In this document: piece after piece, positions 7,861-53,158 of the stretch
Position numbering within the stretch: position 1 is the first letter of the stretch
Layout of the letters: each line of letters begins with the position of its first letter
Assembly (NCBI GenBank): GCA_029783825.1
Contig: JAREIK010001718.1
Span: forward strand, 2,112,898 to 2,176,897
Length of the DNA: 64,000 bases
Direction: 5' to 3'
Source of the DNA: Sapria himalayana
Taxonomy: Eukaryota; Streptophyta; Magnoliopsida; Malpighiales; Rafflesiaceae
Notes under the pieces: model-generated
What the model was told of the DNA's origin: nothing
The model's database searches: none
The model's input: the letters and a program-made list of their open reading frames with translations, nothing else
Position numbers and translations under genes: made by a program

Positions 7861-10640
7861 AAATATCCCCAAAGTTCATAAACAAAAGTATCTCATCAAT
7901 TAAGATTTGTAAGTATATGGGTCTTATAACTAGTAAAGTAGATTTTTGTCTAGATAATCACATGGGAAGTGTATCAACAGTTTAGTTATTCAATAATGAG
8001 AACTTATTTTTAGTATATTTTGAATTTGGATTAATAGACAATATTAGGTTCATGGTTTATTCATTTAACCTATGTGATGAAATTTAAGTTGCTCGACTTA
8101 TAATATATTGGACACATAATGAAGGTTGGGTGTTGTGCAATGACTCCTTGCCCTACCAATAGACAAGATGAATGTTACCATTGAGTTTGTACTAATGGTG
8201 GTCACTTCGTAGCTTTCTCCTTGGTATATCATCACCAAGACAACAATTCATCTCTATTTGAGAGTCCTTCACAATTATATAACTTTTAGACAGCTTCATT
8301 AACTACCCTTGATAGTTATTTCATATGTAAACTTTTATTCTCTAGCCTCAAATATCATAAAGACCAAATATTGACATGGATAATAAGCATTTTCACTCTC
8401 ATATTTGTATGTGATAGACTTACACAATTAATATATATCTTTCTCAAGTTTCACATATGAGAACTATATAAGTAAAAGTAGCTCACATAAGATGTCAACA
8501 CCTTGTGATTCACAACATACTTGTGTATGTCCTAAGGATTACTTATCATTATCCTCCTTAGTGATGATGTGACTCATAGACTAAACATGAACCACATAAA
8601 AAAATAATTTATATAACATCCATCCCAATCGAGAACTAGTTTTTAAAGATGTGTATAATGGATTGGTATATAAATTTTTTCATATTTTCAGCTTCATAAT
8701 CACCATACTCATGAAGATTAACATATCCAAATTTTGAGTTTCAACATATAGGTTTATGTCATGCATCAAAGTCAAATAGGTTGTCACTGTTTTCCTTCAA
8801 TATGTGTGAGTGAGCCTCATATTTTATTTGTCACTATCCACCACAATAATCTTGTACAAAACTACTAGTAGTCAAAACTTTAGTTCATTTTCTTTTTAAT
8901 TACCAGACATCAATATCTATAGCAATTAATAAATCAAATACACTTATTCATTAATTAAAAATTAAATTCATATCACATAACTCAACTTAAACAAACTCTA
9001 GACTCATACTAGTTTGGTTCAAATTTCCAAATCCAACCTATAGAAGAGAAGTTTGATAATCATGCCCCCCAAATCTAGAGATTAAAATTAATCTTGTGTA
9101 TCTTGCTAGTGGAACCCCTAGAGATTGCAAAATTTTCCCCTAAAGTTTTGTAATTTTTGTGACTTTGTTTGTTGCGCGAGGGAGAATAAGAGGAAAATGA
9201 GAGATACTAATGGAATTTCTCTATCTTCCACATTCATACTTGAGTAATATTGCATTACTCTAAGAAGAAAGTCTTGGTTATTAGAAGGTCATAACTTTAG
9301 CATTTATCTCTTCAACTTGAGGTTGTGACTCTAGAAAATGGATATGACTCAAGTCTAAATCTTGATCATTCTATAGCACAAAGTCATAGTATTGGCAATG
9401 AGCATGACTTGGCCCTAGTGTCTCTATAACACAAAGTCATAGTGATATGAAGTGGTGGTGGCTTCATACCTTTGTCAGCTTATCATCCCTATAAAGGGCC
9501 ATGGCATTTAGATGTGACTATAAAGTGGTGAATGGCTTTTTATTTTTTTTATATAGCCATGATGTTGTGTAGAAGCTGTGTTATTAGAAATAATCTTTCT
9601 TGAGTTTATATTATCGTGGTGTTGTGGAGGCCTTTCATGTTTAGTCATGACCACAATGCTGGGAAATAATCATGGCACACAATTTTCCATACATATCTCT
9701 CAAATGTCTATAGTATTGTGGTGCCCATAGAATTATCCTTATCTTCTCTCATATATCATATTGACATAGCACTGCAAGGATGCCTTGAGAAAGGCAATTA
9801 TATCAAGGCATCAAGCATACATGTCATGCTTATGTCATCCTATGAGGACAATAGTTTTGGCTTTGAAAATAGTCATACTCAAGTAATGTCCTCTATGACT
9901 TTAGTATTACAAAAGTCTTGGTTCTAAAAAAGTGTCATGGCTTTTGAATGAGTAATTATAGCTCGATAATATTTTGAAGCTCAAAAGTCACAACTATATA
10001 AAAAAAGAATGGCTATAACTAAATATGCTAAGCCTTGTTAAAGATAAAGTATGACACTTGAACTTAACCATGACCTTGAGTACTAGTGAGATACTTAGTT
10101 ACTATAACATAGAATTAATATTGTAGCTATTTTAATTTCTCAAGATAAGTATGATTGTGACTCTATTATAATATTTTAGCCACTAGGAATATGTCGCATA
10201 GTCAAAGGATTGTGCTAACTAGTTGGTAGGATTGTGGCATATAAAAATTATATTGACTAATTAGATAATGTTTCAGCCAAAAAAGGATATTACAACTACT
10301 TGAGACTCAATATTCTATACCCTTTACTAAACACATCAAAAATATATATTATATTCATGCCTATTTATAACTCACCAAAACAACAAAGTCATAAAATTAA
10401 CCCATAATATCTTTATTTCCATATCTACACACTAAAATAATTGTTCATCCCTAAGAAATAACATCCCTCTCTATATAAAAAATATTTATCATCACTACAA
10501 ATTGCTACGATTAGGGTGTCATATTGTTAAAAAATAGTGGAATAACTTAAAGTGGATATGTTGATAGTTATGGTGAGATTTTAGTTCCACAACTATACTT
10601 GTAGGTCATTGGATGTATATATATATTTTTTGTGATGGAT
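7860..10640 (-). repeat. Best-preserved copy of the gypsy-type LTR
   Basis: The block has three parts, read on the plus strand: a body (7860-9200), a zone with dozens of gtcatg/catgac words (9280-10300), and an AT-rich tail (10300-10500). It then runs into a conserved junction near 10660. On the minus strand that junction reads aggtgagag-like sequence followed by caacccaaag, like the short GAGGCAACCC stretch that follows pol in Athila/Tat-type gypsy elements. The same parts in the same order occur at 16030-17391 plus 33719-34760. The stretch 9400-9450 aligns with 33726-33770 across the CACTA insertion site. LTR status is inferred from this paired arrangement around gag and protease remnants. 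Confidence 0.55.
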
Positions 10641-16029: not shown

Positions 16030-17391
16030 ATTTCCCAAAAGCTCACTAGGTGAGTGTCTCACATAAAATGTAGTTCTACGCGTATAAGAGCTATATAAGT
16101 AGTAAATTAGACATTTATCTAGGTCCGATACCATAAAGATTATGTAGGTAGTTTGATCAATCAATGGTTAATCAACTGCTCCTCTAGTTGGAAGAATAAA
16201 ACTAGCTTTTTGTTATGGCTCTTAAATTCTAGGGTTGATCCATTACACTAAGCATAATGACATAATTAAATTGCCTAGTTATTAATGTGCTTGGTTATAG
16301 AATAAATGTTGGATTATTGTAAGAATATCTTAGTGTCCTACTAGCATAAATGGTAGTTATCATCTATTATACCTTCTCCAATTGATTGTCCTCTTATAGT
16401 TATTCCCTTGATAGTTTACCACTAAAACAATACATCATTCATGTTTGAATGTCATTTAAAAGTCCACACTTTTTAGGCAACTCATCAACTAATCTTAGTG
16501 GTTGCTTTGTATATTTTTTTATTATTATTTTGACCTCATTTGTTATAAAGTTATGAATTGGTGTGGTATTAAAAGTATTTATACCTTCTAGTACATAAGT
16601 ATCATACTCATAATAATTAATGTATATCTTCTCTCTAATATCACTGATAGTGATCATATGATAGAATATAACTCACCAAGGCTATCACCACCTTATAATT
16701 CACCTCTATATATGCATGTATCGTGACTTACATGTCACCATTCATCATGATAACACACAACTACAACATGCAAGGTGAAACCCTTATAAAAAAATTTTAT
16801 AAATCCTCATATTAATTTATAGTCATTTTATTTAAGATATGCACAATAGATTATCTTATAATAGTATTTGTGCTTTTTACTTCATAAGTACTATATTGAA
16901 AAAGTCATAATGATTAAACTTATCTCAATTTTATAGGTTTACCTAATGTATCATGATCAAAAGGGTTGTCAATTTATTCATACTATTACATATGAGTGTG
17001 TCTCATGACATACCTATCATGGTCCATGATGATGACTTGTACAAACTTACTAATAGTAAAACTTTAATTTTAGTTCTAAATAAATTACATATCTATCAAT
17101 AACAAAATCATAACACAAACTTCAAACTAAATATAAAAGTTATCAATTATATATCTATTACACGTAACAAAATACATTAATCCTATATCTCAATTTAACC
17201 TAACATTTAAGAGGAATTCACATGAGATGATTCAAAATATATCTCAGGGAATTTTTGACTCCCAATGATATCCCTCAGAAGAATCTATGATTCATGATCT
17301 TAAATCCTCAATTCTCATTTAGAGTTCCTCGAATCTACTTCTAAGTGGGAGTCAAAATTCATGTCACCTTTTAGGGAAAGTCATGTACTAG
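16030..17391 (-). repeat. Gypsy 5' LTR, body part (left of CACTA insertion)
   Basis: This aligns part by part with 7860-9200. Shared words include the ggttgtcaa stretch (16963 and 8776) and the tataagtagtaaattagacatttatctagg block. Reversed blocks also occur at 35060-36400. The LTR is interrupted at 17391 by the CACTA element and resumes at 33719. The minus ORF 16439-16657 lies here; its peptide shares a REKIYINYYEYD-like stretch with the plus ORF 35622-35888. That reflects the LTR homology, not a gene. Confidence 0.55.
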
Positions 17392-18060
17392 CACTACAAG
17401 AAAATATTGATTTAGCTAGGGAATTTTAGTTAGGGATCAATCCCTATCTAAATTGTGAGAGATTAGCTAGGGAATAGCAAGGGATTTATGTTTTTTCATT
17501 AAAATAAAAATTTGCAATGGATTAGTGACGGATTAGCGATGGAAAAATTTCATAAATTCTGCATCAGAAAAAAGCGGAGAATTTAGCAATGGATTAGCTA
17601 CAAATTTAGCGACGGAATTTCCTTAGATATTAAAATCTTGAATTTAGAGATGGATTTAGCGACGGAATTTCCCTTGCTATTAAAATTCAGAATTTAGTGA
17701 TGGATTTTGCGACATAATTTCCCTAGCTTTTAAAATCCATGATTTAGTAACAGATTTAGCGACGGAATTTCTCTAGCTAATTACATCTAAAATAATGCAA
17801 TGAATTTATGCATGAAATTTTTCTAGCTAATTACATCTGAAATATAGTGAGAGATCTAGCGATGAAATTTTCCTAGCTAATTAGATCCGAAAATAATTCA
17901 TCGCTACTTTTTTCATAGATTCCACGAAATTATAAACCGGTAAAATAGCGACGAATTTAGCAATGAAATTTTCCTAGCTAATTAGATCAATACAAAATCA
18001 ATCACTAAATAAATTTTTGATTTTATTTTTTTACAATTTTATATAAAATTGGAATCGATT
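17392..18060 (+). repeat. CACTA left terminal and subterminal repeat region
   Basis: This begins with the CACTA inverted repeat, followed by about 20 degenerate copies of a unit with tagcgacggaatttccctagct or its variants (17520-17990). The region 17392-18360 is closely similar to the reverse complement of 44560-45181, so the same terminus type exists twice in the window in opposite orientation. Confidence 0.8.
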
Positions 18061-18577
18061 ATTCTTTTAATGCTTATTTTTTCAAAATATATGTATTTAG
18101 CTAGGGATTTTTTTTCTAGCTATTTGGGCAAGTGATAATTTCTGTCACTAATTTTTAATAATTTAATTTTTTTAGCAATATTTATTTTAATATTTTATTT
18201 TATTTTCTATATTAAAGGAAAGTCATGGTCTATAGATGAGCAATCCTTGAAAGACACAATCTCCTGATATAATTATAAAAATATGATGTTATAAATAAAA
18301 ATTTCATAATTATATAAATACGAATAAAAATTTATATTAAATAAGACTAAAATAACTATTTTTTGATTATAAATTAATCAAAAAATAATACAAAATATTT
18401 TTCTGAAAATTTTACTTATGATATTTAAATATTTGTATTAAAAACATTATATAATTTATTATATAATTATAATAAATTTTAAAATATTTTAATTAATAAA
18501 TAAACATAAATAAAAATTACTACTAATAATTAGCTAAAATAAACAATTTATAAATATTAATATTATTTCTATAATAG
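18061..18577. other. AT-rich inner part of CACTA left end
   Basis: Very AT-rich with no coding signal. The stretch 18220-18360, including ggaaagtcatggtctat and aaatacgaataaaaatttatatt, recurs reversed at 44570-44680. It therefore belongs to the element's terminal domain rather than to host DNA. Confidence 0.55.
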
Positions 18578-18860
18578 AACAAGGTGAAGGTGTAGTTGGT
18601 TCAATTGTGGTTGAGTCGAAGAAGGTGAAATTGTTTTTGGTTCAATTTTGGTCGAAGAAGGCAAAGGTGTTTATTGTTCAACTGCGCTTGTACAAGGTAA
18701 AGGCATTTTTGGTTAAATTGCATTCGATCAAGGTGAATGTGTCTGGTTCAACTGCACTCAAACAAGGTGAAGGTGTTTCTGGTTCAATTGCTCTCGAACA
18801 TGGCGAAGGTGTCTCTGATTCAATTGCCCTCGAATATGGCGAAGGTGTTTTTGATCTCCA
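18578..18860 (+). repeat. 36-bp minisatellite with an open reading frame
   Basis: About eight tandem degenerate copies of a unit of roughly 36 bases (gaaggtgtttctggttcaat, then tgctctcgaacaaggc). Because 36 is a multiple of three, the plus frame is open (18607-18876) and reads a repeating peptide with GEGVSGSIALEHGEGVSDS. The minus frame is open too (18678-18863). Copies become less regular at the left end. There is no start context, partner exon or family similarity, so I treat it as a repeat and not a gene. Confidence 0.75.
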
Positions 18861-20689
18861 CACTCAATACTTTTAATGAATTGAAGGTAAGATGCCCATC
18901 TCATAATCAATGATTAGTTCCATGTAGTCAAACTGAGTTTCCAATTTTCCCTATAATTTAATCTGATCTTTCTGCACTACTAGGATTTTATTTATTGTAG
19001 GACCATTGGTTGTTTTTTCATAATATTTTTTGATTTCCTGAGCTATAGTAATTGAAATACATGAACAATTTAGAATTAGTTTATTTTTACCAAAAGAAGG
19101 GAAGTAGCCTTGCTAATTTTATAACTAAGCTTCTGTTCATTGTACCCACATCTGTAAGGTATATCTTATTTTAATGCATCTTCTCCGAGTCATTGTATTT
19201 CCCTAATTGTGAAAGACAAAAAAAACTTATAATGCATCTTCCACGGATCATTATTTTTAACTAAGCTTCTTTACTTACTTTTGTAAAAAGGATGAAATAG
19301 ATTATATACAATAGCTATTTGATCCAAGGGGTCTCCGAAAAGTTCTATTATTTTTCTCCAACTGCATCGAAGATTGTTAGGGCCTCTTACTTACACTTCA
19401 TCATGAAAGGGTTTGGATTTTCTTACTATGTAATCAAGGAGATAGATCTTTCAGTTTTCTATAGTTTTTGTTTACTTTCAGAGTTAGTGTTCCATGTTGA
19501 AAATGGATATTTTCTTTACTATTTCATGTCAATGCATATAGTTAAGATACTTGAAACCTAATTGTAGCCAACTTTGAACAAAAATAATGTGTTCGATATT
19601 AAGCAAGAAAAAAATACTGGAAGAGAAAAGCTGCTAAATGTGATTTTTAAAAATTTTATCTAATATCTCTTGGTTTTCATAAATTTATATGGATCTCTTG
19701 ATTTTTGTAGCCTCCATGTGAGGCTTGATTTTCATAAATTTCTTGTGAGGCTTTTGCTCTTTTGAAACCTTCATGTTTTTTTTTTTAAATTTCAGAAGTT
19801 TTTATTCTTTTTTATACAGATACTAAATGTCATGTATAAGTATTAAGTGTTGTTAAATCTATTCAAATTTGTTTTGTTATTATTTTCATTAGTGAGGTGA
19901 TGTCATCAAAATCAAGTCATTAAACCACCAAAACTCTCACAGAAAACTTACTATATTATAATTTCAAATTTTTTATAATTTTTTATTTATTTTATTTTGT
20001 TTATTTTTTATTTATGGATAAAAGTATCCAATATATACATTATTTCAAATTATCTTACTTAGCATATAAGGGTATCTTCTATATGTATATTTTTATTGTA
20101 TTGATAGTGAGATTTTTCATATTTTAAATTCACATAGTGCATGTGAATTCAAGCCAATATAATATCCTTTGTTAAGAAGAAGATATGCTTAATGCAAAAC
20201 TTTAAACACAAGAAAAGTGTGCCGCCATTTTATTTTAGTACCTTTGTTTCACGGTCATTGCATGCAATGTATAGTAATTACAGAAGCAAAAAAAAAGAAT
20301 TAGTCATGCCATTTTTTTCTCTTACTATGTATAGAAAATTCTATGTACATCACATACTATAGGTTGCAGGCGCATACAATAAACATGCAAGAAGGGAGTA
20401 AAGAAAAGTAGAAATTTTAGTATGACATTTTGAATGAAACAAACTAATTGTTAGTGTCAAAATTATTTGTATGATACCAACTTATTGTGGCTATTAATTG
20501 AGATAGTAATGGTATGATATCCATATGTAGATATAAAAGATTTTTTTTATCGTTACATATTGTAGGTAGAAAGGAAATGAAGAAGTACTAATAGTTATTT
20601 TTAGGAAAGATATTGAACTAATTACATAATATTAAGAGATATACAATGACAATCAAAGTTATCTAAGGATATTCATAGTGATTATCTAT
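18861..20689. other. CACTA interior, no recognised gene
   Basis: AT-rich sequence with scattered T-runs. The plus ORF 19319-19561 has no family resemblance. No exon-like GC islands are apparent. Confidence 0.4.
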
Positions 20690-21570
20690 TATGATACTTA
20701 TTAGATAGAATTATACAAAATTTTTCTCTAAGGTAAATATACATATTTTATATTTTTTAGGTATTACTGGTATTGTGATATGTTTGTTCATTTGAGACTC
20801 ATGGATTATTGATTTTGGAATTAATAATTATCTTATGAGTTTTTATTATTTTTTATTAATATTATTTTTTTGTTCATTGAGTATTATAGGATCTAATGGC
20901 ATGTCCTAAAAAATTACTCATTATGGTAATAATTTATTTATTCTTAATTATTCTATTATTTTTTGTATTGAGTTCTCATTTCATAAAATATAATTATGAT
21001 TTTTTTTTTGATAATTATTTGTAGGATTAAAATATTTCAAAGTAAATGTCTCACTAAATGTTTGAGTAATATATATTTTTAATATGATCATCTATTACTT
21101 GTATATTTTTGACTTGATAATTAATTATTGGCCAAACTGAAAATATTATATTTTATATTTAAGAGAGTTGCTCTATTAGAGTGTGAGACATGTCAATTAA
21201 AAAAAATATTAGAATTTCTTATTTTACTCGCCAGATTAGTGTGAGTAAGGATCATAGAATATATATTAGATGAATTTAACACTTATTGTACAGATAACAC
21301 TATTGTATGCTAAACTTTTTATGTTGACACACTCCCATAGTATGAGTTTACAAAAAAGAAAGAAAAAATATCTAATTGAGATAGGTCATATATTTTTCTT
21401 AAGTATGAGAAATATATACAAGAAAGAAGTAAAGAAAAGATTAATTTTTCTAATATGATACTTATTAGAGAGAATTATATAAATTTTTTTTCAAAGGCAA
21501 CAAAATATATATTATATTTTTTTAGGTATTAGTAGTATTGTGATATATTCTTTCATTTGTGGCCTAATAT
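20690..21570 (+). repeat. Direct duplication inside the CACTA element
   Basis: The stretch near 20690-20795 (ttagatagaattatacaaaat, tttttaggtattactggtattgtgatat) is repeated near 21458-21560 (ttagagagaattatataaatt, tttttaggtattagtagtattgtgatat), an offset of about 765 bases. The right copy runs directly into the GH3 fragment. Its ttttttaggtatta resembles a splice acceptor, so it may be intron sequence upstream of a GH3 exon. Confidence 0.5.
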
Positions 21571-22040
21571 TCGATACGTCAAGTGTGTCACCACATGAAG
21601 CACGAAGCATGAAGCAGTATTATCAAAAACTCAAGCAATACATAGGAGAGACTTCATTGTTATGCATAGATTACCTTGCTTCAAAATGTTGTGTTGCAGT
21701 CAACCTTGATCCTACTCAACCACCAAACACAACTCGGTTCGTCATGCTTCCCACTATAGCTTACTTAGAGTTTCTTCCATATGATCCTATTAATGCAATT
21801 CATGGTGTGATCATTCTGGAAGAAACAACTGTGGATTTCTCTGGCGTCGAGGTGGGGAAGATGTATGAGTTGGTCGTGACTACCTATAGAGGACTATATC
21901 GATATCAATTGGGTGATATAGTGAGAGTTGTTGGCTTCCATAACTACTCTCCTCAAGTTGAGTTCGTAGTGAGAGCACCACAGCTTGACTATGATACTGT
22001 GACTAAGGCAGACTTGATGTCTGCCATTGAAAGTTGCTAA
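21540..22040 (+). pseudogene. GH3 family fragment (acyl acid-amido synthetase), captured exon
   Basis: GH3 enzymes are ATP-dependent acyl-adenylate enzymes that conjugate amino acids to auxin, jasmonate or benzoates in the cytosol; full proteins have about 580-610 residues. This open stretch of 166 codons covers only an internal to C-terminal part. From about residue 24 it reads MKQYYQKLKQYIGETSLL. Next come DYLASKCCVAVNLDPTQPP, then RFVMLPTIAYLEFLPYD, then the diagnostic TTYRGLYRYQLGDIVRVVGF and the PQVEFVVRAPQ block. The nucleotide-binding SSGTTxGxxK region and the start and end of the enzyme are missing. It ends at a TAA right after MSAIESC. The frame is intact over the homologous part, suggesting fairly recent capture. 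It lies inside the CACTA element, 400 bases from a UBC fragment. It cannot be a working enzyme; whether it is transcribed is unknown. Confidence 0.88.
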
Positions 22041-22460
22041 CTTGTGATGTTTTACCCAAATAGTATGTTATTCCATTCATTGTTTCTTGCATGATGTAAT
22101 TTTAACTTTTATATTCCTGATGTTTTCTTTGTTTCATGGAATACCTAGTATTTGGTATTTTAAAGTAATCTTTCTTTTTTCTTGTTTCACTTATGGGCCA
22201 TGATACATGACAACACATGCACCTACTCTGCTGGTTGTAGCTTGCATACTAGGATGCCGTGGAGCATGTGATGCATGCCCAAAATAACCTCCTCGCCTGC
22301 TTGGCATTGGCTTGTGTGTCAGTATACTAAGCTGGCCTGGCATGGTCTGTTAGTCACCTATATGTCCTAGTGATTATTAGATTTGTGATGTGTGGGTACA
22401 AAGTAGAAGATTGTTGTACTTGACATCATCTAAATAAAAAAAATGTTTCTTTTCTCGTGG
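22041..22460. other. Spacer between the two captured gene fragments
   Basis: Non-coding and somewhat more GC-rich than the surroundings at 22200-22350, where ctggcctggcatgg and gatgcatgcc words occur. It may be GH3 intron or unrelated filler DNA; I recognise nothing in it. Confidence 0.35.
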
Positions 22461-22553
22461 AATTCATCAGTTTATGCTGATGGAAGTATTTGCTTGGATA
22501 TTTTACAGAATCAATACATATATGATGTTGCTGCAATACTTACTTCTATCCAG
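22461..22553 (+). pseudogene. RAD6/UBC2-type ubiquitin-conjugating enzyme exon fragment
   Basis: The frame reads [15 protein letters not shown], then [13 protein letters not shown], then a GT splice donor (cag|gttcaac, exon end 22553). This is the active-site segment of plant UBC1/2/3 (RAD6-like E2), whose usual form is [16 protein letters not shown] followed by [14 protein letters not shown]. The catalytic cysteine codon TGC is at 22491. Relative to the family the W-S-P after QNQ is reduced to Y. The residues just before YADG (FHPN) are partly deleted, and the rest of the roughly 150-residue protein is absent. The preserved exon end and apparent intron show that the piece came from genomic DNA, not cDNA. 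It lies inside the CACTA element downstream of the GH3 piece on the same strand. The plus ORF 22443-22640 merely reads on into the intron. Confidence 0.88.
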
Positions 22554-24071
22554 GTTCAACTTTTTGTGAATCTTTTTAATCTAGTGAAATTCTTTTGTGT
22601 TTTATCATCAATAAATTCAATTTCAAATAATATATTCTGAACTTTTTCTTTTATCATCAATGGGTGGCCCAATCATACCTTGAATTGGCTGCATTTTCAT
22701 CACAATTTGTTCAGTCTAAATAATCAGAAGCTTGCTAGATTATCTTTTAAATAGTCGATTGGAGAAGATTTTACCCGGTACACAAGGCATGTACCCCATT
22801 TTTGAACTAGGCTAGGTGACTTGAGCTTGGCCCAAGGCATGGCACTGAATAGCATAGTCTATAGATGTGTTTTTAATAATGTTATTTATTAATGGGGTGA
22901 AGAATGCAAGTACTCCATTTTTGAATTTGTTGCTATTATTGGCAACAATGGCTGCTTTGAGAGTTCTGACAACAAGAGTGACAAGTTAATGTCATTGTCG
23001 CAAAGACTAATAAAAATATCTATCTTTTATTTGTAAGGTGTTTAATTTCTTCCAAAGGTTATGAACATAAATAAAATCTAATGATTATTGGATTTGTTTT
23101 AAAATGAAAAAAAAATTAAAGTAATTATCTTTTAATCTTAAACATTTATAATTTTTCATTTTAAAATTATAATTTTATTTTTCTTTTAAAATATTACAAT
23201 TATTTTATAATAGTGAGCAGTAAAAATTCTTTTATTTATTTTTTTATATCATAAAAATAATACATCATATAAATAATACATCATGTTAGAATTGAAACTA
23301 TATTATTGATTATGACTATGAGTACTCAATATTGATGGATGAATATTTTAGTTGGTTTTTGTGGACTTGTTGGGTATATTGATTGAATGTGTGTGTGTGT
23401 GTGTGTGTGAATATATATTTGAGTTAGTTTTTTTTTTCTAGTATAAAGTAAATAAAAAATAAACTAAAAATTTTATAAATTTAAAAAATAAAAAATAGGT
23501 AATATAAAAATAATATGAACTTAAATATAGAATAAATCCGATTGAAAAGTCTGAGATTGAGTTATATATTAATCATATAAGTCTACCTCAGCTTTTGCAT
23601 ATAAAAAAATATAATAATAGATGAATATTTGTAGTAAGAATTTATTTTAATAATTAAAAATAAAAATTAAAAAAATGTTGATAAAAAAATGTATATTATA
23701 AAAAAATATCTACTTGTCAGAATACTGATCGTATTAGATAATCTTAGGAGATAATTCAAACAATGCATAAATATATATGATCCATTGAATCTTAGATAAA
23801 TTTAAAGAACATGAGCGGTAAAATTTTTGAATATGGATCAACCCTCGTATTTATTTATCTATTTCATTTATCATTATTAAGTTGAAAGAAAAAGCATGAT
23901 TAAGTATATTTCTAATGTGTAAAGTGAAGTGGTCTATGAAGATGATGTATTCACATACATCATCAAAAATGTTTATAATTTGGGTCCTTTTTTAATCACT
24001 CATATTTTCAAACCCTTAATTACTTTTGCGTTATTAAACAAAATCAATAAAAAATATAATACATAAATGTC
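22554..24071. other. CACTA interior, probable captured intron then AT-rich DNA
   Basis: Immediately downstream of the UBC donor the sequence is intron-like and T-rich. At 22740-22860 there is a moderately GC-rich patch (acccggtacacaaggcatgtacccc) that I do not recognise. A (TG)n dinucleotide run of 22 bases lies at 23388-23409. The rest is AT-rich without coding signal. Confidence 0.4.
23388..23409 (+). repeat. (TG)n microsatellite
   Basis: Eleven uninterrupted TG dinucleotides within AT-rich DNA. Confidence 0.95.
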
Positions 24072-24960
24072 ATGCATAAACATGTTTTTATGCATACTAG
24101 TTATGCGTAAATATGTTTTTATGCATACCATCTATGCATAAACTTGTTTTACTGCATACCAAGGTATGCATAAACATCTTTTTATTCATACCAGCTATGG
24201 ATGAACTTGTTTTTCTGCATTCCAAGTTATGCACAAACTTGTTTTTTTGCATAACAAGCTTTTTGCATAAAACTCAGTTTATGCATATTTCAGTATGCAA
24301 AAAAAAACTTGTTTATGCATAGTTTGATGTGCATAAAAATTCATTATGCACATAAATTCATTATGCACATAAAAATTTGTTATGCACATAAGCACATGAA
24401 TGAGTTTTTATGCCCAAATGAGTCATAGTTGTAAATGAATTTTTATGTGCATGAGTTTCTATGCAATAAAATTTATAATGCATGAGTTTCTAAACTTGAT
24501 TTTATGCATAAATGAGTCGTGCAATACAAACTATGTATAAACTTGATTTTATGCATAATTAAGTTTATGCATAAATGAGTTTGTGTTTATGCATAAACAT
24601 GAATATAAATGAGTTAATGCAAATATGCATATGGTGTCAAGCAAAAACTCATTTTTATGCATATCTATGCATAAACTTGTTATGCACATTAACTTGTTGT
24701 GCATAAATGCAAAAAAGGGTTTATGTGCATAACATGTTTTATGCTTAACAGCTCATTATGCAGAAATGCAAAAACTAGTTTAGGTAAATATGAGTTTTTA
24801 TGCGTACTTAAGTTTGCATAAACTTGGCTTATGCATAAATACATAAGCTCATCATGCATAAACTTTTTTTATGCATGTTTATGCATAAATGCATAATTGA
24901 GCTTATCCATAAATTTCTTTATGCATAAATATATATGAGTTTATGCATAAATTCATGCAT
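24072..24960. repeat. Palindromic TATGCATAAA array
   Basis: Almost 900 bases are built from repeated units containing the palindromes ATGCAT and TTATGCATAA, joined by short linkers such as aacttgtttt, gagttt and gcacata. Units are irregular in length (about 15-35 bases) and occur in both orientations, so the array can fold into many small hairpins. The plus ORF 24113-24322 reads through it and is not a gene. It sits in the middle of the CACTA element. Confidence 0.85.
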
Positions 24961-27179
24961 TACATTTTATTTAATTTTTTAAATAATGCAAGGGGTAATT
25001 TAATTGTGTATGGGAATTTGGTTGCTCAAAAATAGACCTAAATCATAAATATTTTTAATGAGTCCCTAAATATTATATTAAAATAATAAGGGATTTAAAA
25101 TATTATTTTTTTTTGTTTTAGGACTTCTTTTCATTATTATCCCAAAAAATATTAGGATTTTATGAGATTTTTTATTTTTATGATGATATTGCCATATTTG
25201 AGTGTTTGTTGAGTGTTTTTAGAAAATAAAAGATGCAAAATAAATTATTTAACATAATATTAAATAATGTATCAAATAATAGTATTGGTATTATTATGTT
25301 TGTAAGAATTATTAAATATGATTTCTTAGATAAAATATTTTATATTTTATATATTTGTCACATAATGAATTAAATAATTAATAGGAATATTTTCTTAGGT
25401 AAGAATGGCATGTCATAATTATCCATTTATATAATTATTCCAAATAATATAGGATTTCATAAGTTTTTTATTTTTATCATGTTGTCATAAAATTGTTTGT
25501 TGAATGTCTTTAGGAAATATTAAATATAAAATAAAATATATAGTATAATATTATTAATATATCAAATAATGGTGTTATTATAAGTATGTTCGTAAGTATC
25601 ATTAAAAATAATTTTTTAGATGAGATTTTTCACATTATATATGTGTCATATAATTAATTTAATAATGAAGATTGACCTATCTAGTTTTCTCCTTATTATA
25701 ATATAAATAAAATTTATGAAAATATTTTGAAATATTTAAAAGATTATGAGAGTTTTATATTCTATATAAGTAAGGTGTCCTAAAATTTCTAAGTGGATGT
25801 TAGGTATTTTTGAAATTATATATTTTTTTTGTTGGATTCAAGTATTGGTACTAAATTGTGATATATGAATACATTAATAATAAATTAATAAAATAATAAT
25901 TAATAATTTAGATTGAGTTATAGAAATTTTATTTTTAAAATACTTTATGATATGATGAACCTATACTTACTTATATATACTCTTACTAAATATATTATAT
26001 TTAGGGATATATACAATATTAATTCTTTTTAATAAATATAGTGAACACTCAATTTTGTCATAACTATTAAGATTGAAAGTAAATATTTAAAATATTAAAT
26101 TTTTATTTAATATCTTTATTACTTGGCATCTTGTATGAATGCTAATGTTAAGATGAAAGATATAAAAAATATTATTAAATACATATTCATCTGCATTAAT
26201 TAATTATAAAAATATGAGTAGAATTTATGAATATTTAGATAATTTATTTAAATATTATAAAGATAAGTATAAAATAATTATTGTGAACTTTCAAGTATGG
26301 AGATTAATATCATATTTAGAAATAATTTTTTGATTCAGTTATTTGAAAGCAAATGATGAGGATGTTCATTGAAATAAGTAAATTATTGAAAAAACTTAAA
26401 TATTATGTATTATTATATTTTATTTAAAACTGATATGAAAAATTAATATGTTGAGCTTGACATTCTTCTTATAAGCTATTGATTTATTGTCCTTTCAAGT
26501 ATCTAGTATAATATCATTATTTATTTTTATTATGATTATGAATATGATTTGAGATAGAATCATAGTTGTTAAATCGAGATTTGAATTAAAAATTGGAATG
26601 ATTGATTCGTAAATCACGAATTGATTCAAATTGTAAATTAATTTTTTTGTGATTTTTTTATATTAATTAATTTATAGTTCTTATCATCGGTAAATTTTTT
26701 TTGGTATTTTAGTTTTTATTTTTATGATTTTTTTGGTATTTTATTATTTTTTTACGTTAAATTCATAATATTAAAGGTTTGAGTTATTTTTTTTCATGTT
26801 AATTAATTCTAGGTAATCAGTATTAAATTGATTCATGATTCAATGATTTAGTTTTTTAATTAATTCATGCATTTTATTCTTTTAAGAGCTGGATTTTTTA
26901 CTCTCTTAATCGTGAATTAAATTGTGAATCGTACGATTTTGATAACAGTGGATAGAAGAATACCATTATTATAAAATAAAATTAAAATTGTCATGTTTAA
27001 AAGATTGAAAATATTTACGATTGAATTTTAATGATAAAATAAAAGAGCTACAAGTGGATGTTAAAATATACAAATATAATGATCCTAACTAGATGGACTA
27101 ACCTTAGTTTAGCATACATTTCTTTAGATTTATGTTTTTAGTTGTGTGTTTTTTTTAAATTTGTCTTGTAATGATATGT
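24961..27179. other. AT-rich CACTA interior, no gene recognised
   Basis: Extremely AT-rich with irregular internal similarity: phrases like gataaaatattttatattttat with atgtgtcatataatt recur near 25350 and 25640. There are no coding blocks. It may be a decayed insertion. Confidence 0.4.
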
Positions 27180-28460
27180 TCGAGCAAGCATGTTGCCTAC
27201 ATTATTTGCGGTAGGTAGTTCAAGTTGCTCTTTGATCCTACTTATTGTTTGGTGATAGGACTAGGGCCAGTTGTAATTTGTTGCCCATGACAGCAAATCC
27301 AGGATAGTCTTGGTTAGCTATAGGCTGGGCCATGTACTAGATTCTCCCTTGCTTGGCCATGTTGGTTTTACCTGACATGAATCTAATCTGGATAGCTTAG
27401 TCAGTCCAACGAGCTTTAATTGCCTACATCATTTGGTAATGTGTTGTGGTTGAGGAGGAGCAATGTGTTGACCAAGCTTTAAAAATTTGGGCCCTATTGA
27501 TCCATTATGATCCAGCTGACGATTCTACCTCAGAGTTTAATATTTTGACAGTATTACTATTAAAAGTTGGAAATTCAATGTCTGATGAGTCTCTAACCAA
27601 ATCTATATGTCTTTGGATGAAGATATTTGTCAAGTCACCGAAACAGTTTTCAACAAATATATGAATCATAAAAATTTTTTAGATTATCAAAAATATTAGG
27701 GGTATTCTCGTCTAATCGTGTTTAACACATGTAATTTTAAAATTTTTATGATATCCAGTGTGTTAATCAATTGTCATGTTTAAAAATAAGGTATATTTTA
27801 TTGTCAACTTCAAAAATAAGTCAGATGTTATTGTGATTGTGAATGGAAGCCATCTGCTCATTAGGTATTAATACTTGCTACTTTAAAAATGTGTTCCAGT
27901 CATTAGTATGTTTCTCCTAGGAGGTGGCGGATGAGATACTTGATTATATGCTCTGGATTTAGTTTTGGAAATCATGTCTTGATGCATGCCTATGAAAGAC
28001 ACTTTCAAGCATGCCAATGTGCTATTTTTTGAAACTATTGTTGACCCATGCATGTCCAACATGATCAGACCCATGCATGTCCAGCAATGAAATGACTTGG
28101 GTCATGTTGGGCCATGTGATCAAGCTTGTGTGCCACAAATGGGTGCGACAGTCGACATGACATGACTCGCAAAACTTGCTTGTGTATGTTAAATTTGGTG
28201 TGGTTCATGCTTTGTATTGGGCAAAAATTCTGACTTGATTTGGCATATGAAACTAACATATCAGTTTTAAAAATAGATCATGGTTTAAGTTGGTCGGAAT
28301 GGTCCAAGTCAAGGCTAACAGTTAGCCTGTGCCGACTTGCCTGGACTTCACCTTGTCTAGCTAGGGTTTAGTCGTGTCTAGTTAGGAATCACTTCTGCCT
28401 AATACTTGGATTGTGTCGGGGTTTGTCGTCTCATTCCATCTTATACATCTATTCAAGAAA
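27180..28460. other. More GC-rich unidentified block inside the CACTA element
   Basis: Base composition changes abruptly to a more balanced one, as at a foreign or captured segment. Words such as ggccatgttgg, cccatgcatgtccagc and gtcatgttgggccatgtg repeat at 28050-28130. The longest plus frame, 27446-27664 (72 codons, MVEEEQCVDQALKIWALLIH), and the minus frames at 27883-28074 and 28065-28259 match nothing I know. It may be a further captured but unidentifiable fragment. Confidence 0.35.
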
Positions 28461-30099
28461 ATTTATTGATGTCTTATTGATTGTGTCAAAAGAAAATATG
28501 AGTGAGGACTATCAAAATTCATAACATAAAAAAGCTTGTGTACTAGCAGATTTAAAGATAGTGAACTAGCATTTTTTATAAAAAAATTGAGGATGTAAGT
28601 CAAGTAAAATATAAATTAAATAAAAGGAAGGATCATGCATAGAAATATATTTGTATCCTTAATCAATGATGATTTGATTTTTTGTATTTTTTGTAATAAA
28701 ACTAAAAATATAGAAATATAATGATAAATATTTTTTGTGATAATTTAAAAATGTCATGACATTTAAAATGTAAAAGAATAAATGTTTTTATACGTAGTTT
28801 TTAAAAAAAAATTTTAAATAAAAAAATAGTCTATGAAATGGATATTATACATGAAAATTTTATTGAATCTTAGGAAAATGAATATGCTATTGAAAATTAT
28901 AATAAGATGAGTGTTACATGCATATCTAGTGAAATTAGTACTTAATGAAGAAAATAATAATAATAATAATAATAGTGGTAGTAATTATTTTTTACTTCAA
29001 ATCTAAAAGGGTTTCTTTGAAATTGATCAAATTCAATTATATTGAATAATGGTTGAAAATTTAGTAAAACATCATATATATTAATTAATAGATGAATATA
29101 TTATTCTTTTTTATATTAATTTGATTATTTATCCAAGTTTTCATGTGGTAAAAAATGCTATTCTAAAAAAATAGTATTTACTAAAAAATTGATGTAAAAT
29201 TATTTGATTGAGTGAGAAATAAATATCTAATTGTGTCAGATGAATGAATTGATAAAAAATATAAAAGGATAATTACTTTTGTGTGATGTATCTAAAATAA
29301 ATATTTTATTATATTTATGCACTCAACTGTTATTTTTATTCCTACAATTATAGAATTTTTATTTAGATTTAAAAACAAGTATAACAATAAAAGAATAAAA
29401 TATGTTTTAAGGTATTTTAGATTATTATTAAGCTATATAATGATGCAAATGAAATTTTTGTTTTTTGTTTTTTTTTATGTTAATTTTATCTAAAAAATTT
29501 GCAAATTAATTATGAGCATTTTATAATATAACAAATAAAAAATTTTGGAATTGAAATTGTAAAATTTGTGTTAGGCTTTTGTATTATATTATGTTTATTT
29601 GGTCCTATAGAATGTTGTAAATGTCTTTAATATGAAGAATACATTAACAAAAGTTATTTTCTAATAGTTATAAGTATAAATTTGATTACCACTAGTTGAC
29701 ATGATTAGATGATTCACTAAACAATTGGAATTGTTTAGATTCTTGATAATATAATGTATAATTATTTTTTAATGTTGACAGCTTACTCAATTTGTGATTA
29801 AAAAAATTTGAGAAATATATTTACTTATTTTAATTAGGTAGATAATTTATTAGTAAAATAATAATATAGAAAAAAATAAGAAAAATTATGTAAAAAGGTT
29901 GTAATATGAAAATAATTAAGAAATAATACTCAAAATAAAAAAATATCTATATTTTGGTACTCTTAAAAATATAGATGGATAAATAAATTCTTTTCTCATG
30001 TTGCCTATGCTTGTGATTAAAAAATAATTTTAAATATATATTTACCTGTTTGATTAGGTAAATATATTTAAATATTTAACAAAAGTCAAAAATAGTTTT
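28461..30099. other. AT-rich CACTA interior with a (TAA)n tract
   Basis: No coding signal is seen. A (TAA)n microsatellite lies at 28952-28974. Otherwise it is AT-rich sequence with long A and T runs. Confidence 0.4.
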
Positions 30100-30320
30100 T
30101 TTTGAATATACTACTTTTGAAAACAAAAGCATATACAATATATATGTTAAAATGTGTAAATGTATATCTTGTATGCATGTATAAATGTATTAATATGTAT
30201 TTGTTATTATGTATATATTGTATAAATGTTTGTATGTATAAACATATATACATATACATATATATATATATATACGTATATATATACGTATTAATATGTT
30301 TGTTTTTTTTTTTTTGATTT
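30100..30320. repeat. (TATG)/(TA)n simple-repeat cluster
   Basis: Degenerate tatgtat and gtataaatgt words lead into a nearly pure (AT)n tract at 30243-30297 with two acgt interruptions, then a run of T at 30303-30315. The frames open on both strands here (30102-30317 plus, 30190-30423 minus) are products of the repeat. Confidence 0.85.
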
Positions 30321-31256
30321 TTTGTTTTTTACATGATGTAGATGAGTAAGACTGTAAGAGTATATTTGGGTTTTTATTTTTGAAATATAAAAAGGTTAGA
30401 TAGTATTTCTTAATTATTTTCAAATTATATTTTTTTGGATAATTTTTTCAAAAAAATGTCCAACACTAAATATATATTGTTATTATGGAACACACTTGAC
30501 TATTACTTAAAATATTCACTATTTTCACTTCACTTTATTGATTGTTTACGTATATAACTGAGCTTTTATGAAATGCATTCACAAGATAATAAATAATAAT
30601 ACAAAGATATTTGTGAAGAGTACAATAGAAATGACTAGAACTCAAAAGGATGATACAAATCATTAATATGAGCTGAGATTATAATTAATAAATCTTTAAG
30701 TATAGTTGAATTTATCTTGAACTAATGATTATGTAATTAAAAATAAGAGTAATGTCTAGCTTACTGGTGATTTTTATAGATGTGTAATGAAAATGATCAA
30801 TAATTTTAGAAAATAAGAAAAAAATGATAAAATTAATTAATAAATGATTGCTCAAGGATTACTTGGAAGTGAGTTTGTTATTTGAACCATGAAAACCAAA
30901 ATTTATTTATATACTACATTTCTAAACATATTTTATTTGATTCTCTTTGTTCTTGAAATATTAATACATATGATACAAATGAATGTGAATTGCTTGTTGA
31001 GTTTTATCTTTTATTTGGAAGGTTTCTAATGAGATTTCTGAATTTATATTTCATTAAATAAGAAAGAAAGTAGAATATATTAGAAATTTTGTGATACTAA
31101 TAGTTATAACATTGTAGATATATTAATAAGTAATTTTGTCTTATGAATTTATGATTGTTTATCTATGCATATTGTTGTGATTTAATATAATTTGTATGCT
31201 ATTTTTATGCTATATTGTTTGGGAGCATATAGCATACAAACACAGTATATATAAAT
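30321..31256. other. AT-rich CACTA interior, nothing recognised
   Basis: No gene, RNA gene or named repeat could be identified. Confidence 0.35.
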
Positions 31257-33270
31257 GCGGCAGCGATAGTGATGACAGTAGTGGCAGCAATAACGGGAGT
31301 AGCAGCAACGACAACAAATGTGGTATATACTTACATATATAGTTAGTATATACATACATATAATACTGCATTATTTTATGTACATATATAATGAGTATAT
31401 ATGTATTCAGTATATATGTATGCATAATACTGTAGTTTATATGTACATATACTACTGTAATATATGTACGAGTGAAATGCTAGTATATATGTACATAGTT
31501 ACTGCAATAATATATATGTATCAAAACATAGTTTCTTTTAAATTATTTTGATTTGATTGAGTGGTTTAAATTTCTTACAGATATGGTACCACATTGTTTT
31601 CCATACGAAGCTTGTATAAGTGAAGAGATTTTTCAACAGACATGAAGTACCGTGACTCGGACAGTTTTTTTGCAGCAGAAAGTTGGTGATCGGAGGAGCA
31701 GAGGGAGAGAAAGCAACGTCAATGCAAGTATAGATTATACTTTATGCACAGTCGGTAGAAACATTGATTAATAAGATGTAATATAATTTTGTTATTTTTT
31801 TATTTTAGTTATTTAAATTATTGTATTAGAATAAGTTATTAAATGAATTTTTTTTTGTTTAATTTAAATTTTTCATTTATAGTTTCTTTTTTTATTCAAT
31901 TTAATATAAAAATCTAAAATTATTTAATTAAATTTTTGTTGAAGCTGAATGACAATCAACTTTAATTTGTGTTTGTTCATGTCTATAATAACTATTTTTA
32001 TATATTTGTGAATATATGTGTGTGTGTGTGTATCCGAATTTTTTGGGTAGAATTTTAGCCTATTATAGGTATGTAAAATCCTATTATTAGTAGTAGTAGC
32101 AGCGGCTGTGACCGTAGTGGTAGTGATGGTAGTGGCGGCGGCAGTGGCAGTGGCGGTGGTGGTAGCGGAGGAAGCAGCGGCAGTGGCAGTGGCAGTAGTG
32201 GCAGTGGCAGCGGCGGCGGCGATAGTGACGGTAGCAATGGCAGCATCTAAAGCAGCGGCAGTAGAAAGAGGCGGCAGCGATGGCAGTGGCAGCAATGAGC
32301 AGCGGTGATAGCAGGGGGCGATGGCAGTAGCAACGGTAGTGGTGGAGCAATGGCAGTAGCGGGGCAGTGGCAGCAGCGGTGGTGGTAGCAGTGACGACGG
32401 CAGGGGCGGCTACGGTAGTGCGGAGACAATAGCAATGGCGGCGGCGACGGCAGTAGTGGTGGTGGCGGTAGCGGCAGCAACGGCAGCAACGACAGTGACA
32501 ACAGCAATGACAGCAACAGCCTCAACGACAACGACAATGGCAGCGTCCGCGGCAGCCACGGCAACAACAACAACTGTAGCAGCAGTGGAAGCAACGACAA
32601 GAGTGTCAGTGGCAGCGGGAGCAGCAGCAACAGCAACAAATATGATATATACGTATGAATAAAGTCAGTATATACATACATATAGTAATGCAGTATTTTA
32701 TGTACATATATACTGAGTATATTTATACTCCGTATATATGTAGATATAATACTGCAGTTTTTATGTACATATAATGTAGTAATATACGTACGAGTGAAAT
32801 GCTAGTATATATTTACATATATACTACATGAGTATATATTTATTAAAACATAACTTTTTTTTTATTTTAATTTGACTAAGTGGTTTAAATTTCTTACAGA
32901 TATGATACTGCATTGTTCTTCATATAAAACTTGTATAAGTGTTGAGATTTTTCACTAGACATTACATTATGTAACTCGAACAGCTTTTTCGTAGTAGAAA
33001 AATGATGATAGGAGTAGTTGGAGAGAAAACAACATCAATTAATAAATATATTATACTTTATGCACTGTCGGTAGATATATTGATGAATAAAATGTAATAA
33101 AATTTTGTTATTTTTTTATTTCAATTCTGTAAAATATTGAATTAGAATAAGTTATTAAATGATTTTATTTTATTTTTTTATTATAAATTATTTATAGTTT
33201 CATTTTTTAGTCAATTTGATATAAAAATATTAAATTATTTAATTAAAAAATTTTAAAATAAATTGAATAC
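31257..33270 (+). repeat. Large tandem duplication (period about 1319) with GC-rich trinucleotide core
   Basis: The segment 31257-31940 is repeated at about 32576-33260. For example, gtggtttaaatttcttacagatatg is at 31561 and again at 32880. Each unit has a GC-rich trinucleotide core (31257-31320, and the far longer 32084-32640), then a zone of tatatgtacata and acgagtgaaatgctagtatat words. After that comes a block with gagatttttca and a gtcggtaga stretch, then AT-rich DNA. It lies just inside the right terminus of the CACTA element and is probably part of its subterminal structure. Confidence 0.8.
32084..32640 (+). repeat. GC-rich GGC/AGT/GCA trinucleotide minisatellite
   Basis: About 550 bases consist almost entirely of the triplets ggc, agt, agc, gac, aac and gtg, with frequent 6-base periodicity (ggcagt)n. 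They start after a (tag)n run at 32085-32100. GC content is far above that of the flanks. Because the repeat is triplet-based and lacks TAA, TAG and TGA in several frames, long open frames appear on both strands (for example 32108-32308 plus, and 32247-32681, 31924-32295 and 32087-32350 minus). These encode alanine-, serine- or leucine-rich strings and are not genes. Confidence 0.9.
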
Positions 33271-33289
33271 TGAAAATAGTTTTGAAATT

Positions 33290-33718
33290 AAAATAGTTAG
33301 GGAAAAATCACTTGCTAAATTAGCTAGGGAAAATTCCCTAGCTAATTTAGCAAGGAATATCTTTATTTTAATAACTGATTTTTCCGTTGCTAAATTTATT
33401 TAGCTAGGGACTTTTTCTGTCGGTAAAATTTAGCAACCATCACTTTAGCTTGGGAATTTTTTATCGTTATTTTTGGTTAGCGATGGAAAATCTCATTTAG
33501 CTTGCTAATTTAGCGAGGGAACTTGTCTTTTTTAGCAATGGATTTTTCCGTCGCTAAATTTTTAGCTAGGGACACTTTCCCTCGCTAAATTTTAGCAAGG
33601 AGCACTTTAGGTAGGGAACCGATCCATCGGTGATCCATCGTTATATCTAGTTTAGCGACGTAAAATGCCCATTTAGCTAGGGAATTATCTCTAGGTATAT
33701 AGGATTTTTCTTGTAGCG
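33290..33718 (+). repeat. CACTA right terminal and subterminal repeat region
   Basis: Dense copies of gctagggaaa, tttttccgtcgctaaattt and ttagcgagggaa lead to the terminus aggatttttcttgtagcg, whose reverse complement starts CGCTACAAGAAAA. The motif family is the one at the left end, but unit order differs, as is normal for the two ends of a CACTA element. Confidence 0.8.
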
Positions 33719-34760
33719 TGGGGAATAAGCATGGCATTACCTTTCCTCTCTATAACACAAAGTTACCACACTATAGATTGTTTTGGATTTGATATTTTTT
33801 TTATTAGATTCCATCATGGTGAGAATGACCACGATTCATGTATTTTCTTCTCGTAATAAAGTTATAACACTAGGAATGATAATAACTTATATATTTCTTT
33901 TCTATAATTTAAAATAATGGCACTAAGAATATTCATAGCTTCTACATTTCTCCTACATAACTAAAAGTCATAGTGCTTGGAATGATCATATCTTTGGTCT
34001 TTTATCTAGAGCAAAAAGTCATTGATTTGAGATGACCATGACTCGGGTAAATACTCTTTATAAGTTTATGTAGCCAAAAGTCATGACATTAGATAATTAT
34101 CATGGCTTTTCCCTTAGCATTTGTAGACCTAGAAAGAGGAAGTCATGGTGCTAGAGAAAGTCATGGCTATTAGCATTATAAAATACTTGGCTACTATGAT
34201 ATAAAATTAATATTGCAACCAATAAAATATTATAAAGTTAGTGCAACTGTGATTCCAAAAAAAGTTTTGAAGCCAAAAAGAATGTGTTGCACACTAAAAT
34301 AATTGTGTCAATAAGGTGGTAAAGTCATGACATATAAAAATTACTATAACTAATTGTGTAGAATTTCAGCCATGAATGGATAATAAAATTAATTTATATA
34401 CTCTTATAGGTGTAACTAAGTCATAATATGAGAAATGATATGACTTTCCATGACTTGTTTCTCTCTTTATACTCAATAATTTTACCAAGTCTTACATTTC
34501 ACAAAAGAAAACTACATGATTTTACTGTTATTTTTCATATTGCACCAAAACAAAAATTTAAGAAATTATTCTATTTAAAGCATTTTTTCATGCAAAAATA
34601 TCATGAATAATTACTAAAATAAATAGTAATATTTAGTATTATACATATCAAATAGATTTATATTACACCAATACTTCTCTTAGAAAGACCAAAAATGTGG
34701 CTAATTCCAATGCTATAACTTTATATTATAGAGAGTAAATGTTAATTGTGGTAATTCTTA
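33719..34760 (-). repeat. Gypsy 5' LTR, gtcatg zone and tail (right of CACTA insertion)
   Basis: This continues the LTR broken at 17391. 33726-33770 (aagcatggcattacc, then ctctataacacaaagt) aligns with 9400-9440 (gagcatgacttggcc, then ctctataacacaaagt). It is followed by many gtcatg words and by the AT-rich tail at 34400-34690, similar to 12090-12400. The plus ORF 34428-34610 lies in the tail and is not a gene. Confidence 0.55.
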
Positions 34761-37310: not shown

Positions 37311-39048
37311 TGGAGATGAATTTAGCCCTCCTTGATGAATCTTAGATAAGTCGGCACTTTAATGTTTTGGTCTAACATCACACATGTCCATGTAGTATGT
37401 GAATGCCCAAAAAACTTTAAATGTCTAAAAAATCAATTATGATTATCCTATGGATTCATTTTTATTGACTTCGTTGATAGAATTTTCATAAAATGAAAAT
37501 ATTACACTTGTCTATTACAATATTCATGACTTGTTAATTTAGAAATGTCAATTTAATAAACCAAGAAAGTCAAATATTAGTCACTCCAAAAAAAATTGAT
37601 GCCCAACATTAATCATGTTCAATAACACAATAGCCACTAGAATAATGTTGACTATTATTTTGTTCTAATATAGAATTCTATTAATTCATGAGTTTTCTTC
37701 ATTTAAATTTACCATCAATCAAGTTTGTTTAGATTTTGCATATATTCTTTTTTTTTAATGATAGCAATATAAATATGACTCCTATTTATGCCTTTTACTT
37801 CTTGCATTGCATAAAAATTATTTACTAGCTTAATGTCAAACTTTTATCGCCTCTTTCATAATTTATATTTTGGAACGACATTTCATTTGTCAAATTTGAT
37901 CTATCTTTTTGAATGCAACATAGAATATATCCATAATGTGGAGGAAAAGAAGAATACTAGTATTTCCTTATCCAAAATTTTTCTTGCACTGTATATATTG
38001 GATTTAGTGCAACATTATAAGTTAGTTATATGACAGTATTTTGCAAGTTGTTATGAAAATTTACATGAAAAACAAGAAAAAAGTAATATTTTTTTTCTCT
38101 TGTTATAAGTTTTGTCTCTAATTTATGTTTTATAGATTTGATTTAGTGGAATATGATAAGTTAGTTATATGATAGTACTCAGCCATTAAATTGACTAATG
38201 CTTTCATTTGGTTAGTAATGTTTTACTTGAATCTCATCCTTTATCCATGCTAGAAATGGAAAAGATATTATCAACTAAAGGAAAAATATGAAGCCAAAGT
38301 TAACGATAATCAAGTCAGAACAAGTATGTTTGATTTTACCATCACAAAGGATGTTTTGGGTATTTATATGATGAAATGATAAGAAAGTGATATTTTAACT
38401 AAACGAGGGAATCTCTTGAGAGAATTTCCTTAACCAAAAAAAGTTCATCTTATTCCCTCACTTTATTTTTGTAACAAGAGATGTTATTTTTTTATCCCAC
38501 CAAAATCAACTTATATTATCTTTTGGCTCACATTTGGCCACAAGTCCTCGCTTATTTTTTATCCTATGCACTCTATATCTCTCTCTCGAAGTATGTTTTT
38601 ATTTTCTTTCCCCGTCATCCCATTTTCCGGATTCCCAATGTTTTTCTTTTTATTTTATCTTATTAAAAATGTATTATCATTATATTTTTTTACACAAGAC
38701 CATGCATGGTGCAGCCATGTGCTGATGTCATGGCATGATCTCCTGCTTTCGTTTTTTATTTATTCTAATAATTATATAAATAAATAAATAAAATAACAAA
38801 ATTTCGACTTCCTCATAATTTGACAAAATTTGTCACCGTAGCTATATTTTCTAAGATGAATTCAATAACGAAATCCATTTCATCATTAGAGTTCTAAAAT
38901 TTTAATTTATTTTTTTTATTGCAAAATTATTATTTTGCACATTTTTTTCCAGAAACAAAATCATATTATTTATTTCTTCATTTTTTTTTCTGGATTTCAC
39001 AGCACATATAATATATTCAATAACATGAACATGAAAAAAACATTCAAC
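37311..39048. other. AT-rich stretch, no gene recognised
   Basis: The ORFs 37833-38033, 38481-38666, 38534-38725 and 38566-38787 are overlapping or T-rich and lack family similarity. At 38810-38885 the words gtcaccgtagcta and aataacgaaatccatttc recall CACTA subterminal motifs, so the 3' end of one of the CACTA copies at 39-50 kb may lie here. No CACTA terminus was found. Confidence 0.35.
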
Positions 39049-53152: not shown

Positions 53153-53158
53153 GCAAGT
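53149..53158 (+). other. GC splice donor of intron 4
   Basis: Exon 4 ends ...GAAG and the intron starts GCAAGT, the strong consensus of the minor GC-AG intron class (AG|GCAAGT). The phase (one base of a glycine codon left over) fits the family sequence, where SEG is followed by T-D. No GT donor keeps both frame and homology at this place. Confidence 0.7.

Follow-up and report, generated by a model that had tools for sequence, protein, structure and literature searches.

How did pieces of two unrelated host genes come to lie side by side, in the same orientation, between the ends of what looks like a single transposon? The question is raised by a 64,000-nt stretch of the Sapria himalayana genome (the window; G000:C1718:2112898-2176897, from a 2.06-Gb genome comprising 18,497 contigs), for which a preliminary description had proposed a Pack-type CACTA element at 17392-33718 with fragments of a GH3 gene and of a RAD6-type ubiquitin-conjugating enzyme (UBC) gene. 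Pickup of host genes by transposons has been argued mostly from the comparison of finished elements. The premise of the preliminary description, that CACTA elements of plants capture gene pieces, is borne out by published cases (PMC8903248, PMC1947982, PMC8978399), and the parts of the literature consulted describe Pack-CACTA elements, several loci in one element and the fusion of neighbouring insertions (PMC8903248, Gisby and Catoni 2022; PMC13317346).

One non-autonomous CACTA element

The ends and the right-hand interior of the element comprise the following features.

17389-17391, no strand: left flanking triplet TAG (right counterpart TGG, 33719-33721; two of three bases identical)
17392-17404, plus strand: left terminal inverted repeat, CACTACAAGAAAA; other copies start at the same point
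17412-18105, plus strand: left subterminal repeats, TTTAGC-AGGGA-like motifs, with 50-bp units at 17604-17903
22907-33285, plus strand: AT-rich interior, also present in the full-length copies; no transposase domain detected as far as 31951
31294-33247, plus strand: a direct duplication (31294-31932 and 32616-33247, 82%) with an AGC/GGC-rich tract between its halves (about 32092-32650)
33286-33697, plus strand: right subterminal repeats
33706-33718, minus strand: right terminal inverted repeat, CGCTACAAGAAAA when read inward

Two hallmarks of CACTA elements were found at the termini named in the preliminary description. Inverted repeats beginning CACTA are present, with CACTACAAGAAA at 17392 showing no mismatch and CGCTACAAGAAA, inward from 33718, showing one (CGCTA), where most other copies terminate in ...TAGTG. 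Clusters of a TTTAGC(T/G)A(G/C)GGA-like subterminal repeat lie at both ends. Ten GH3-bearing copies from elsewhere in the genome were taken as 20-kb stretches, and six of these had both ends. Homology to the window element starts in the six at 17388-17392 (17388 in C1435, 17392 in the others) and stops at 33716-33720, giving lengths of 13.3 kb (C1258), 15.6 kb (C1435), 15.9 kb (C1593), 16.1 kb (C1720a and C1720b) and 17.2 kb (C395), with 16.3 kb for the window copy. The remaining four comprise C1027, with a right end (33714), C2618 and C1381, each with a left end, and C3183, which is of another form. Because six further copies show the same start and stop, both termini belong to one family, and the single 16.3-kb element first proposed is supported beyond chance.

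Target triplets were compared in the seven two-ended copies. All three bases agree in C1258 (AGA/AGA) and two of three in C1435 (TAA/TGA), C395 (CTT/ATT) and the window (TAG/TGG); none agree in C1593, C1720a and C1720b, of which the last two have their flanks in common. The weakness of these triplets is a point against the explanation preferred below.

Six-frame Pfam scans (E 0.1) of 18200-31951 detected no transposase domain, the repeat-rich ends at 17392-18199 and 31952-33718 lying outside the scan. Host gene DNA, in the form of the GH3 and UBC pieces, is present between the termini, and genome searches with each piece identified at least 40 dispersed copies, 40 of which were scored per search. 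The element is a real non-autonomous Pack-CACTA element, of a kind already known, and the interpretation first given, a CACTA element of the Pack type carrying pieces of GH3 and UBC, is supported. The preliminary description had also suggested looking for other copies with the same fragments. Among the matches listed, a UBC match lies within about 1 kb of the GH3 copy in 38 of 40 cases, the exceptions being C10031:21449 and C109:77254. Since the GH3-UBC pairs recur on many contigs, the pieces are not remnants of genes at one syntenic locus, a possibility that the preliminary description had named and that was rejected on this count.

The GH3 piece

The host-gene DNA of the window copy falls into two pieces.

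21557-22049, plus strand: GH3 gene piece (central domain), with a broken frame
22046-22906, plus strand: UBC genomic piece, consisting of the end of exon 3, an intron, exon 4 and the start of intron 4; 87% over 870 columns to the UBC gene on C801
22471-22553, plus strand: UBC exon 4, preceded by AG and followed by GT; the C801 exon is 6 bp longer

GH3 homology is confirmed (Pfam GH3_M, E 1.8e-25; PDB GH3-1, E 7.5e-30), and GH3 proteins match 21557-22049, rather than the 21540-22040 first given, in two frames. Among at least 120 GH3 matches, all those with a named source come from flowering plants, which points to such a plant as the origin of the window. The frame had been called intact and it is not: the codons of 21557-21595 are read in a different frame and are followed by a 7-bp insertion near 21590, and the frame is ended by a TAA stop at 22038-22040, while the open reading frame at 21483-22040 begins in non-coding sequence. 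Among 16 copies compared, the insertion was found only in the window copy and the TAA stop in all 16; by codon, the stops are Q446* (16/16) and G301* (15/16). Because a stop is common to 16 of 16 copies, the break in the piece probably predates the spread of the family.

The codon positions of substitutions agree with this. In 14 copies (C1720a and C9758 were excluded as near-duplicates), singleton substitutions numbered 43, 44 and 39 at the three positions (p 0.85), while the differences fixed relative to the nearest intact GH3 gene, on C11278, numbered 7, 8 and 25. Together with Q446* these counts suggest a piece that was dead at the time of spread and had earlier evolved like a gene under constraint. 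For annotation this calls for caution, as the open GH3 frame here is a dead fragment inside a dispersed repeat.

The C11278 gene is about 84% identical to the piece, and the mean Kimura two-parameter (K2P) distance between them is 0.185 (14 copies). Mean distances among the copies themselves, which fall into the forms described below, are 0.078 within form A, 0.083 within form B and 0.096 between A and B. Since the distance to C11278 exceeds those between copies, while the UBC piece is 92-94% identical to the C801 gene, the C11278 gene is probably a paralogue of the true source. Relative to C11278 the GH3 copies also show an excess of C>T changes (53-174 against 1-14). Methylation-type decay inside the element was considered as the cause and dropped, because the UBC piece lacks this excess (16-30 against 17-21, nine copies). 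As a side observation, the C-terminal sequence of GH3 matched 85 stretches of the genome, on many contigs and many with stops; the GH3 family appears to be expanded or much copied.

The UBC piece and its junction with GH3

The UBC exon is of the RAD6 type. Its best PDB match was 2aak (E 1.1e-9), the first match named as another kind of E2 was E2 C (E 0.036), and one chain labelled just 'ubiquitin-conjugating enzyme' had an E value of 4.1e-4. The preliminary description was right about the type, the catalytic Cys and the splice donor, to which the acceptor can be added, but the exon occupies 22471-22553 and not 22461-22553. The two gene pieces had further been placed on the same strand within 0.5 kb of each other. 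They are indeed sense to each other, but they extend over more DNA and directly abut, because the C801 alignment, which takes in introns, makes the stretch after GH3 UBC genomic DNA. The captured UBC sequence thus amounts to about 860 bp of genomic DNA directly adjoining GH3. Where the two pieces meet, the C11278 and C801 sequences both have GATG. Retention of introns in both the GH3 and the UBC piece rules out a retrocopy origin of the cargo.

The C801 gene has four matched exon blocks, no internal stop and about 21.5 kb between the last two blocks, and is likely the source of the UBC piece. The search for donor genes in the same genome that had been proposed was in this way productive, with a likely UBC source on C801 and, for GH3, the nearest intact gene on C11278.

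Three structural forms of the family

Comparison of copies identified three structural forms, A, B and C, which coexist in the genome. In the window copy, which is of form B, the region left of GH3 is made up as follows.

17392-18542, plus strand: left arm, about 76% related to the arm of a second element (45181-44354, minus strand)
18577-21559, plus strand: form B left-arm stretch, not found in the form A copies read; no Pfam match; contains 36-bp repeats (18577-18850)
20682-20794, plus strand: direct repeat copy, 83% to 21446-21559
21446-21559, plus strand: second copy of the direct repeat, ending at the GH3 junction

The 36-bp repeats number six to seven units, and one frame reads as a 12-residue repeat that has no Pfam match.

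Form C, found in C5691 and C748, carries a 1.75-kb UBC piece without adjacent GH3. Its left part consists of the terminus and about 420 bp (C5691) or 540 bp (C748) of subterminal sequence, after which the UBC piece extends from the 5′ UTR to intron 4 (positions 445-2195 of the C801 stretch read). Both copies share the UBC start base (U 445), and at the junction, as read in C5691, the C801 5′ UTR and the subterminal repeat have TTCCCTAG in common. In form A a long GH3 piece replaces the 5′ part of UBC. This form was read in six copies (C802, C109, C9758, C3431, C2329 and C3183), in all of which the alignment of GH3 with the C11278 gene covers about codons 24-449, introns included, and the UBC sequence that follows starts where it does in the window. 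In form B another left arm replaces the 5′ part of GH3. Among the 40 GH3 copies listed, 22 start at query position 1 or 6, corresponding to form B with its arm, and 18 at position 18 or 19, corresponding to form A. The right UBC junction is identical in A, B and C and the GH3|UBC junction is identical in A and B; 3′ of UBC, C5691, C802, C3183 and the available part of C748 continue with the sequence found in the window.

The left arms were compared with a second CACTA end in the window, whose terminus lies at 45181 on the minus strand (one mismatch) and whose left arm is about 76% identical to that of the window element in two stretches reaching 44354. Five form A arms match this second element over two parts, 44899-44209 (about 71-74%) and 43994-43731 (about 78-82%); no match to the latter part was found in the window copy or in either form C copy. 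The same five arms also match the window element's own arm at 18137-18542 (about 74-81%).

Proposed order of the captures

The three forms suggest serial captures beside the left end. The explanation that we prefer, at a probability of about three in four, is a Pack-CACTA family that took up DNA of two host genes, introns included, was spread by transposition and passed through forms C, A and B in that order. Form C would have arisen first, through the joining of a left end to the 5′ portion of a UBC gene of the RAD6 type. Another CACTA left arm with a long GH3 stretch would then have been joined to a UBC element lacking its left part, giving form A, and a further left arm would have replaced the 5′ part of GH3, giving form B and the window copy. 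At every step DNA would be gained on the left and older cargo trimmed from its 5′ side. The steps would fit a published model in which two insertions close to each other, each with a terminal deletion that complements the other's, transpose as a single hybrid and take the intervening DNA along (PMC8903248, in the parts consulted), and the transposase for the spread would presumably have come from other CACTA elements.

The order C, A, B is the simplest because gene sequence, once lost, is not readily regained. A tree built from the UBC segment (two loci were entered twice, under L-names) was star-like, with very short inner branches that were poorly supported except in local clusters, with the forms mixed and with C801 placed among the copies. 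No UBC substitution is fixed in A and B only or in C only, while 16 are common to all nine copies relative to C801. With a star-like tree and no form-specific fixed substitutions, it is structure alone that gives the proposed order; the tree, the lack of form-specific substitutions and the 16 shared ones point to capture and spread close together in time. By structure GH3 is the later capture, yet its distance to the nearest intact gene is greater than that between UBC and C801, so the order needs the C11278 gene to be a paralogue. Two further observations count against the preferred explanation: part of the form A arm is nearer the window element's own arm (81%, 18137-18542) than the second element (74%), and in C3183 the terminus and only 110 bp precede GH3.

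The mixed, star-like tree and the missing form-specific substitutions speak for an alternative in which the forms are not successive, the same Pack-CACTA family having captured or lengthened UBC repeatedly, by gene conversion or in a second event, so that form C is not ancestral. Against this stand the one right UBC junction of all three forms, the one GH3|UBC junction of A and B and the beginning of both form C copies at base U 445, and we consider such a history unlikely. Much less probable still is that the cargo is in use, as a chimeric GH3-UBC transcript with a role as protein or small RNA. The pieces are mutually sense, the UBC exon has both splice signals and chimeric transcripts are published for Tgm-Express1 (PMC1947982, in the text consulted), but Q446* in 16/16 copies, G301* in 15/16 and singletons spread evenly over codon positions (p 0.85) speak against it, and the sequence of the cargo gives no sign that it works as protein. 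That the termini at 17392 and 33718 come from different elements with unrelated gene remnants between them, as the preliminary description had allowed and as a related-family terminus at 45181 and the imperfect TAG/TGG triplets might hint, is rejected as highly improbable, given the same pair of ends in six other copies and the alignment of the window flanks, joined without the element, over the junction to 9352-9437 (71.6%, 88 columns, E 2.6e-5).

Within the preferred explanation, a broader and more tentative proposal, to which we give somewhat less than an even chance, is that capture operates as a one-sided ratchet. Repeated CACTA fusion would add gene DNA on the left and trim the 5′ side of the prior piece with the right arm left unchanged; C, A and B would represent steps that have survived, and the second element, with its related left arm and other cargo (below), would be a product of the same process.

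Comparison with known elements

The family resembles the Pack-CACTA/Pack-TYPE elements of PMC8903248, as far as the published text consulted goes, in its CACTA ends, captured gene DNA, lack of a detected transposase, families of copies, several loci per element and proposed fusion. It differs in its length of about 16 kb, in having the gene DNA beside the left arm and in its three forms distinguished by truncation of older cargo. The data reported there are compatible with newer cargo being more internal; in the present family the more recent captures would, on the order proposed above, be placed between older cargo and left arm. Tgm-Express1 of soybean (PMC1947982) is likewise a CACTA element with fragments of several host genes and retained introns; it is described as 5.7 kb long with pieces of five genes that are transcribed and spliced, whereas the present family consists of many dispersed, diverged copies known from sequence alone. 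Captured fragments lie in the 5′ region of Chenopodium CACTA elements (PMC8978399, in the parts consulted), which, unlike the window element, carry transposase domains and other genes. Maize Helitrons, to judge from a title (PMC3288121), likewise capture in successive steps but belong to another transposon class. No CACTA element with GH3 and UBC pieces was named in the titles and abstract openings found, most subscription papers being outside the search. The kind of element is known; the useful part is the coexistence of truncated forms together with a likely UBC source. With that source, junctions at base level and the forms side by side in one genome, both the fusion model and its direction become testable.

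Other features of the window

Behind the second CACTA end lie a homeodomain-leucine zipper (HD-Zip) fragment (plus strand, about 42900-43200; Homeodomain 39.3 bits and HALZ 39.0 bits, above the Pfam cut-offs) and AP-4 sigma exons (minus strand, about 41335-41460, 41541-41640 and 41785-41900). The latter scored 21.9 bits with Clat_adaptor_s, just below the Pfam cut-off, and matched PDB AP-4 sigma-1 at E 2.9e-15, followed by AP-1 at 6e-11. The far end of the second element was looked for and not found. An HD-Zip match lies 1-2 kb from AP-4 sigma at 31 of the 40 AP-4 sigma matches listed, the window included. UBC-protein matches ending near residue 107 adjoin AP-4 sigma/HD-Zip copies on C2296, C1560, C2086, C16615, C638, C1027 (two places), C1104, C12791, C1258 and C2510, and this family perhaps holds a further E2 piece; among the matches listed, none falls at the AP-4 sigma/HD-Zip place in the window.

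Outside the 17392-33718 element there is also a DUF4216 match (45475-45960, minus strand), a domain that we take to accompany CACTA transposase genes, and a terminus-like TACTACAATAAA reads inward from about 50385. The two may perhaps mark a decayed autonomous element beside the second one. A 182-bp stretch with sharp ends (38820-39001) had 3317 first-look candidates in the genome, of which 40 were scored. Gene-like exons lie at 51066-53172 (plus strand); one of them has no Pfam match above the cut-off, and they may encode a WD40 protein of the TBL2 kind.
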